Below are positions 1,072-12,374 of a stretch of DNA of 28,867 nt, in pieces. The notes below the pieces were generated by a model. That model saw nothing but the letters and a program-made list of their open reading frames with translations. It did not search any database and was not told where the DNA came from. This DNA is from a virus. A program made the position numbers and the translations under genes. The DNA lies in the IMG/VR virus record IMGVR_UViG_3300029448_000296, positions 1 to 28,867 of that record; one strand, written 5' to 3'. Every line of letters starts with the position of its first letter. The stretch's first letter is position 1.

Positions 1072-1220
1072 ACCTTTGTGACCTTACCCATCCTAAGTAT
1101 TTATATATTATATATACTATATTTTATATAGAGTACATATTAGGGCGAGAGGAAAATATGGCGAGTGTTGAGGCAAAAATATGCGTATGGTTGAGGCATT
1201 TTTATACTTACATACATAAA

Positions 1221-1308
1221 AGGTACAAAAATACAGGTACAGATTAGAAAAAGGTACATTAATAAACCTGTACCTTTATTGTACCTTTATAGTATTAAAA
1301 CTGTACCT
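1221..1308. repeat. Array of three AGGTACA and three TGTACCT sites
   Basis: AGGTACA occurs at 1221-1227, 1235-1241 and 1252-1258. Its reverse complement TGTACCT occurs at 1269-1275, 1280-1286 and 1302-1308. All forward copies lie left and all inverted copies right, giving a roughly symmetric array. The two inner copies form a 9-bp hairpin (1250-1258 with 1269-1277). Possible roles are binding sites for a repressor or activator, origin iterons, or a transcribed hairpin. Confidence 0.8.
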
Positions 1309-5116: not shown

Positions 5117-5827
5117 ATGACTAATTTACTAACAATCAATGGTAACCCTAAAGTTATCAAAGGCGATAAATTAAATACTGAATGGCAAAGTGCTATCATG
5201 CATTTACATCCAAGCAGTACTAGGATTTGTCCTTATCAAGACATTGCTAAATGTAAAGACGCTTGTCTAAATACTTCTGGTCGTGGTGGTATCTTCAAGA
5301 AAGGTGAAACTACCAATGTAATACAAGAAGCTCGTAAACGTAGAACTAATATGTTCTTGGACACTCCTGATTTATTTATGGAGCAGTTGTACACAGAGAT
5401 TCTAAAGTTTGAGAACAAGTGCAAACGAGAAGGTAAACAACCTTGTGTCAGACTTAATGGTACTTCAGATATCCAATGGGAACATCACGAACTCGAAGGT
5501 GTCAATGTGTTTGATACTTTTCCAGAGATACAGTTTTATGACTATACTAAAATCCCTACAAGGAAAGTTAGTCACATAAAGAATTATCACTTAACTTGGT
5601 CGTACTCAGAAGCTAATGAAAAATATGCTTCTTGGTTTGACAAAGTGAGTTATAATATCGCTGTCGTGTTTAGTCACGCATTGCCGATGTGGTATAAAAA
5701 TCGCAGGGTAATAGATGGAGACGAATACGACATGCGATTTCTTGATGAGCCAAACGTAGTAGTAGGCTTGTCAGCAAAAGGTAAAGCTAAGAAGGATACT
5801 TCTGGCTTTGTAATATCAATTAACTAA
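5117..5827 (+). CDS. Cys-motif phage protein (GP88/DUF7227-like, possible radical-SAM-like)
   Basis: 236 aa, the largest product of the accessory region. A cluster near the N-terminus, C38-x7-C46-x3-C50 followed by LNTSGRGG, resembles metal- or Fe-S-binding loops. Downstream are RLNGTSDIQWE (near 113-123), EIQFYDYTKIP, YHLTWSYSE and a C-terminal GLSAKGKAKKDTSGFV. I recognise this set from a widespread phage family of unknown activity, often labelled gp88- or DUF7227-like; the order of motifs is compatible with a TIM-barrel enzyme. Its reaction is not established. Shine-Dalgarno GAGAGGGC precedes the ATG. Family assignment comes from memory of motifs, not a search. Confidence 0.7.
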   Translation: MTNLLTINGNPKVIKGDKLNTEWQSAIMHLHPSSTRICPYQDIAKCKDACLNTSGRGGIFKKGETTNVIQEARKRRTNMFLDTPDLFMEQLYTEILKFENKCKREGKQPCVRLNGTSDIQWEHHELEGVNVFDTFPEIQFYDYTKIPTRKVSHIKNYHLTWSYSEANEKYASWFDKVSYNIAVVFSHALPMWYKNRRVIDGDEYDMRFLDEPNVVVGLSAKGKAKKDTSGFVISIN

Positions 5828-6689: not shown

Positions 6690-6824
6690 ATGTATCAACC
6701 AAGAGTAACTGTCGGCAGTATCCCTTATGATGAGGAAATACTGTGCGACATATGTAGAGAAAAGAAAGCTACACTAAGGCATAGTAATATCTTTAGTTGT
6801 GATGAGTGTTTGACTCGTGTCTAA
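6690..6824 (+). CDS. Cys4 mini zinc-ribbon protein, 44 aa
   Basis: Two Cys-x2-Cys knuckles (CDIC near residues 25-28 and CDEC near 38-41) separated by a basic loop REKKATLRHSNIFS form a plausible single zinc ribbon, which would make up most of the protein. Such mini zinc fingers bind nucleic acids or proteins such as RNA polymerase or nucleases; no specific family is recognised. AGGAGTAGT abuts the ATG. Its end overlaps the next GTG start. Confidence 0.7.
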   Translation: MYQPRVTVGSIPYDEEILCDICREKKATLRHSNIFSCDECLTRV

Positions 6825-6963
6825 GCATAAAGTATACATTGGTAATGTTCTCGTAGGAGAAATAGAAGACCAGACTAAAGAAGAAATAATAGAAGTTCTT
6901 TTAGATAACTCTAAAAAGTTTGTTGAAGATATGTTAAGTGAAGGAGTAATTTATATTGAATAA
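6817..6963 (+). CDS. Hypothetical protein, GTG start, 48 aa
   Basis: A strand-like KVYIGNVLVGEIED is followed by two helices (TKEEIIEVLLDNSKKFVEDM) and a short strand EGVIYIE. The composition is natural for a small alpha-beta protein. The GTG start at 6817 has no strong Shine-Dalgarno and overlaps the previous gene by eight bases, so reinitiation is assumed. Function unknown. Confidence 0.6.
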   Translation: MSKHKVYIGNVLVGEIEDQTKEEIIEVLLDNSKKFVEDMLSEGVIYIE

Positions 6964-12169: not shown

Positions 12170-12374
12170 AGGTGAAGAGTATCAAATAATTATTGATATT
12201 TGCGAAAAAGTAGATGAGATGGTCGAACAGGTAGATGCTTTTTGTAAAATAAAATATGGACATAATAATTGGATTTTTACTGATGACCTTTCAAAACAAG
12301 AACTAAAAGAAATAGAAGATAAAAAACTCGGAGAAGTAATTCCAAGTATTGTTTTTTATTATAAGAAAATTTAA
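12156..12374 (+). CDS. Small hypothetical protein, GTG start, 72 aa
   Basis: Start at GTG 12156 is preferred over GTG 12129 because GGAGGTGA (12143-12150) is immediately upstream. The product is acidic and helical (QIIIDICEKVDEMVEQVDAF), with an aromatic YGHNNWIFTDDL loop and a terminal strand IPSIVFYYKKI. Unknown function. It is sandwiched between polymerase and nuclease genes and shares TAATG with the nuclease, suggesting a replication or recombination accessory role. Confidence 0.75.
   Translation: MKPTKGEEYQIIIDICEKVDEMVEQVDAFCKIKYGHNNWIFTDDLSKQELKEIEDKKLGEVIPSIVFYYKKI

Follow-up and report, generated by a model that had tools for sequence, protein, structure and literature searches.

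Iteron origins of theta plasmids and ori-lambda carry sites for a Rep or O protein; in the parts of PMC10797057 that treat them, they combine several short repeats with A/T-rich DNA, helical spacing matters, and DnaA boxes are sometimes present. For E. coli, sections of PMC6070618 describe low-affinity DnaA 9-mers spaced 2 bp apart, and oriC appears there and in sections of PMC4980987 as 9-mers at a pitch of about 11 bp, arranged in two opposed sets. The virus studied here shares related TerS and primase-helicase proteins with the HMO-2011-type phages and the pelagiphages HTVC103P, HTVC104P and HTVC115P described in part of PMC9038755, and has the divergent gene layout of HTVC115P. The words "DnaA", "intergenic" and "promoter" are absent from the main text of PMC9038755, and the portions covered do not mention an origin or an intergenic hub. 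No description of an AGGTACA array was found in the literature searched, nor was one found of the replication start in SAR11 phages that have T7-like replication genes but in which no RNA polymerase was recognised among the ORFs scanned.

The DNA that we analysed (the window) comes from an uncultured marine virus and is the entire 28,867-base IMG/VR record IMGVR_UViG_3300029448_000296. Its rightward early block encodes a ssDNA-binding protein, primase-helicase, family A polymerase and ribonucleotide reductase, and its structural block runs leftward. Judged by ribonucleotide reductase, Pelagibacter phage HTVC115P is the nearest annotated isolate (63.7%), so the host is probably a SAR11-type bacterium. 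Unlike HMO-2011-type phages, whose polymerase motif is given as CXXCXGXG in part of PMC9038755, the window polymerase lacks this motif. No RNA polymerase was recognised among the ORFs scanned. A GP88-family protein (PF17338, E 1.5e-37), homologous to HTVC115P gp03, is encoded at 5117-5827. Noncoding positions 3-99 are 94% identical to positions 12275-12369 of a longer relative, G001, and the HTVC115P hub holds a look-alike of this stretch (TTGTAYGAGTATG...TATAT, with a G-rich run).

Six copies of AGGTACA start at 1221, 1235 and 1252 (plus strand) and at 1269, 1280 and 1302 (minus strand), and motif counting thus bore out the original prediction of three direct followed by three inverted copies in 1221-1308. 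The site is longer than AGGTACA, as the 9-mer AAAGGTACA is found in five of the six copies. Site 1 is AAAGGTACA at 1219-1227 (plus). Site 2 (1235-1241, plus), where C replaces A as the preceding base, opens a conserved three-site core that continues with AAAGGTACA at site 3 (1250-1258, plus), 17 bp away, and ends with the convergent, reversed AAAGGTACA of site 4 (1269-1277, minus) after another 17 bp. Site 5 (1280-1288, minus) follows at 11 bp and site 6 (1302-1310, minus) at 22 bp, in the same 11-bp register. The arrangement had been called symmetric, which holds for orientation but not for the spacings of 14, 17, 17, 11 and 22.

Such a cluster was also claimed to be too regular for chance, and the counts agree. 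First-order Markov resampling of the window, repeated 400 times, never placed more than two AGGTACA copies within 88 bp, against six observed, and in 30 resamplings heptamers with at least three G/C never exceeded three copies per 88 bp. Outside the array the other 28.8 kb holds only three copies, with 3.8 expected in the whole window.

Left of the array lie a small ORF (635-1015, plus) with a homologue at the same place in several relatives, an intrinsic-terminator-like hairpin followed by a T run that ends the left-hand gene (1031-1066, plus), and, as originally noted, an A/T-rich block at about 1091-1133. The array therefore has at least three copies of one short repeat in about 100 bp adjoining A/T-rich DNA, as an iteron origin does. 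Two 23-bp direct repeats at 1153-1198 (plus) both finish in TTGAGGCA and contain TTGAGGC at 1168-1174 and 1191-1197, a variant of the TTGAGGG element discussed below. To the right, 26 bp from the array, a promoter-like match for the early operon (TTGACA-18-CAAAAT, 1335-1364, plus) agrees with the consensus, on which alone it was called, at 10 of 12 bases. The neighbouring promoter-like element of the original prediction is thus present, but matches of that quality number seven in the window against 8.2 in shuffles, and by itself the match is not significant. A promoter-like block (GCTTGAC...AAAATTTTAA.GGCT.GAGAGGGCA) occurs twice, at 1331-1385 and 1961-2010, each time before a successive early gene, and is possibly a shared early promoter. 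Further right are a 101-aa ORF (1424-1729, plus; model pLDDT 64) and a 73-aa ORF (1729-1950, plus), whose family sits just right of the hub whether or not an array is present. The model of the 73-aa protein (pLDDT 83) has one helix and five strands, and no PDB match was obtained at E <= 0.001.

Conservation was assessed by a neighbour-anchored search with the 101-aa protein, which returned 23 loci. An array of at least three sites lay 136-1867 bp upstream in 20 of these, and of the other three, one had a pair, one a decayed copy and one no site; the query alignment was built mostly from array-bearing relatives, and several of the 23 loci are near copies. A search of relatives for the array at the same position, as had been proposed, was therefore positive, and the array persists in close relatives whose surrounding genes are intact, where its absence had been named as evidence against it. 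In G001, and likewise in another six relatives whose terS is in reach, the divergent hub that separates terS from the early genes contains the array.

Hubs were also collected through TerS, using the best 80 of 540 matches to a query in which seven of ten rows came from array-bearing genomes. Among the 57 hubs with at least 2 kb upstream, 14 had three or more sites and nine had a pair. By their hub DNA they fall into 40 types, with arrays in 7, pairs in 7, TTGAGGG in 25 and none of the motifs in 12; DnaA boxes occur in 8, three of which also have an array or pair. These shares vary with the query, whereas the position of the peak described below does not. Clusters of at least two sites numbered 23 in 73.9 kb of hub DNA versus six in 389 kb outside it. 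When all 420 anagrams of AGGTACA were scored for such clusters, the word and its one-base shifts ranked first (23 of 57 hubs); the next word unrelated to it, GGATAAC, is part of the DnaA box. Chance as the origin of the window array was ruled out by the Markov resampling together with this anagram comparison.

The comparison with G001, the closest relative, was informative. Flanking DNA and neighbour genes are 87-99% identical, and over the array nothing is alignable except 27 bp at the TTGAGG repeat. Both genomes nonetheless have six AGGTACA sites at the same spot, oriented >>><<< in one and ><<<<< in the other. As the sites were kept while the DNA between them was replaced, this indicates that selection acts on them as putative binding sites. 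The array is a real, conserved element, and its repeats are held at the same locus in relatives, a property of iteron origins. The isolates HTVC103P, HTVC104P, HTVC033P and HTVC115P had no AGGTACA array within the stretches examined.

Across 97 sites from 20 arrays, the word again extended to AAAGGTACA: the two extra positions were A in 97% and 82% of sites, and the search itself fixed the seven seed bases. The number and orientation of sites are variable, and orientation relative to the early genes differs by lineage (>>>< versus ><<<<<). Of the 12 arrays that have a convergent junction, 10 contain a three-site core, > 17-18 > 17-19 <. In the remaining two, L096 and L139, the corresponding gap measures 36 and 35 bp, equal to both steps summed, and L096 shows a decayed middle site. 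Of 77 neighbour spacings, 17 were 11-13 bp, 37 were 15-19 bp and 15 were 21-24 bp, counts in which related arrays enter separately and one array supplies eight of the nine spacings of 11. Descriptively, these classes are close to 1, 1.5 and 2 turns of the helix. In one array (L124), ten tandem sites are spaced almost perfectly at 11 bp, and in five (L313, L341, L351, L371 and L279) all sites point one way.

We then compared where different motifs fall within the 57 TerS-anchored hubs. AAGGTACA, the DnaA box TTATNCACA and TTGAGGGC all peaked in a single 500-bp bin, at 2000-1500 bp from terS. This bin lies between the packaging/structural operon, which runs leftward, and the early operon, which runs rightward. 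Densities there were 2.74, 0.91 and 1.54 per kb, respectively, and most other bins were close to zero; the three words used as controls were low in the shared bin. Near arrays, TTATNCACA occurred at 0.66 per kb (21 in 31.7 kb) versus 0.018 elsewhere (6 in 325.7 kb). All 21 copies came from nine of 27 loci, representing three hub types (L095-type, L100/L139-type and G004-type), and 18 of the 27 array loci had none within 600 bp of the array, among them the window, G001, G003, G005, G007 and G008. A DnaA box adjoins four further arrays (L313, L351, L363 and L371).

The slot is also periodic. Pooled over 28 slots, the window included, a 170-bp stretch immediately right of TTGAGGG had an 11-bp period (identity 0.41 versus 0.317, z = 12), with further signal at lags 22 and 32, and the controls within terS and further along the hub had none. 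This period matches the pitch of 9-mer DnaA boxes with 2-bp gaps. By eye, the repeats are tandem 11-mers resembling TGTGGATAACT or TTATGTGAAAT. The signal of the window itself is weak (z = 1.9). TTGAGGG is directional, with 69 of 72 copies pointing to the early genes. Hubs of five phages without AGGTACA sites (L398, L406, L415, L423 and L433) contain 11-bp periodic repeats.

To place the motif more widely, one-direction AAGGTACA triples were scanned in viral and genome contigs, and only matches that proved kin were used. Many spacings among the viral matches listed were multiples of 9, as in coding repeats, and 157 of at least 214 AAGGTACA clusters lay inside ORFs; a cluster was called intergenic when no ORF of at least 60 aa, closed within the contig, covered it. 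Pelagibacter was named in none of the 80 genome matches listed. The triple is unlikely to be a common host motif, judging from its presence in 0 of 114 other Alphaproteobacteria genomes, a set in which Pelagibacter was not identified and the 115th was the matching centre. One alphaproteobacterial MAG (L202, 1145-1178) has three AAGGTACA copies at 13-bp steps. Two unrelated phages also carry AGGTACA clusters: G009, between a primase-like ORF and terS/terL in the pattern ++---++- (L127 3031-3145; also L091 and L094), and G011, in both orientations near an integrase gene (L102 12023-12234).

On balance, we think it somewhat probable that the array is the iteron-like, initiator-binding part of a replication origin that the phage carries in its divergent hub. 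This reading follows from a slot occupied by DnaA boxes or AAAGGTACA, the helical pitch, the A/T-rich side and the location before the replication operon. The hubs of relatives hold true DnaA boxes, as oriC does, and AAAGGTACA appears to join or replace host DnaA boxes in the slot. From the observed position, conservation, phasing and slot sharing, we infer that a protein would bind AAAGGTACA at several helically phased sites and would wrap or oligomerise there; the A/T-rich DNA beside the array would then be opened and the phage primase-helicase loaded on it. The GC skew of G001 changes sign at the hub, a point that coincides with the transcription flip.

The known systems differ from the array in several respects. 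Relative to iteron origins and ori-lambda as presented in parts of PMC10797057, the window repeats are 9 bp and point both ways, and no Rep- or O-like gene was found; relative to oriC, AAAGGTACA is not a DnaA box and no such box is near in the window. This lack of a nearby box, the weak 11-bp signal of the window, the 12 of 40 hub types free of the motifs and the isolates with no array in the stretches examined count against an origin, as does the search for an initiator: scans of a subset of the 58 window ORFs brought up no recognisable initiator gene. The family that best fitted array presence was a 48-aa acidic protein (6817-6963), found in eight of ten array genomes and 0 of 11 without it, several contigs being incomplete; its residues do not suggest a DNA-binding protein, and the families compared for co-occurrence yielded no DNA-binding candidate. 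A further possibility, less likely than not, is a phage origin whose recognition has switched: in one helically phased slot some lineages would recruit host DnaA and others, including the window, would use the phage 9-mer with an unrecognised phage initiator, with mixed forms between.

Regulation of the early promoter is the main rival, a possible reading to which we give a minority weight. Here a phage or host regulator on AAAGGTACA would switch the early operon, the array being an operator or enhancer of the promoter at 1335-1364. DnaA boxes can regulate promoters too, and origin and operator roles can coexist. The short distance from array to promoter-like match, the intergenic position ahead of the early operon in relatives and the direction of TTGAGGG all fit an operator. 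The inverted orientation that some lineages show with respect to the early genes does not, nor does a slot shared with DnaA boxes and an 11-bp pitch, and the ORFs scanned included no regulator with a known DNA-binding domain, small ORFs of no assigned function remaining.

The cosB R sites of lambda are the model for a packaging site bound by TerS, and repeats facing both ways some 1.3-1.95 kb upstream of terS, with a similar array directly before terS in the unrelated G009, could suggest a pac or cos site. The TerS tree makes this unlikely: over 62 rows, presence of at least two sites needs at least eight changes, of which starred branches force at least three, and site presence does not track TerS lineage. 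The near-identical TerS pair L446/L453 has one member with sites and one without, TerS proteins merely 62-64% identical to that of G001 share the array, and the HTVC115P TerS (53%) goes without it. A site for partition or recombination, or some other structural element such as a cruciform formed by the inverted sites, is less probable again. The fold of the window strand is better than that of 200 shuffled versions (z = -4.8), but it is not general, because the one-direction arrays cannot make these arms. An Rfam search gave no match. The suggested recombination or partition role drew no support from the window ORFs scanned (the same subset of the 58), among which no ParA/ParB or recombinase was named. 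As for chance or neutral repeat expansion, the ten tandem sites of L124 are what local duplication would produce; the resampling, the shared-bin peak, the sites kept in unalignable DNA and the anagram test make this the least credible explanation. Among the three roles first offered, the origin iteron set gained most from the slot common with DnaA boxes, the 11-bp phasing and sites kept as spacers change.

If the array is part of an origin, this conserved and easily searched element would mark where to seek a replication peak in these phages and supply a motif with which to fish for the initiator. The natural series from DnaA box to AAAGGTACA could also let a switch of initiator be followed.
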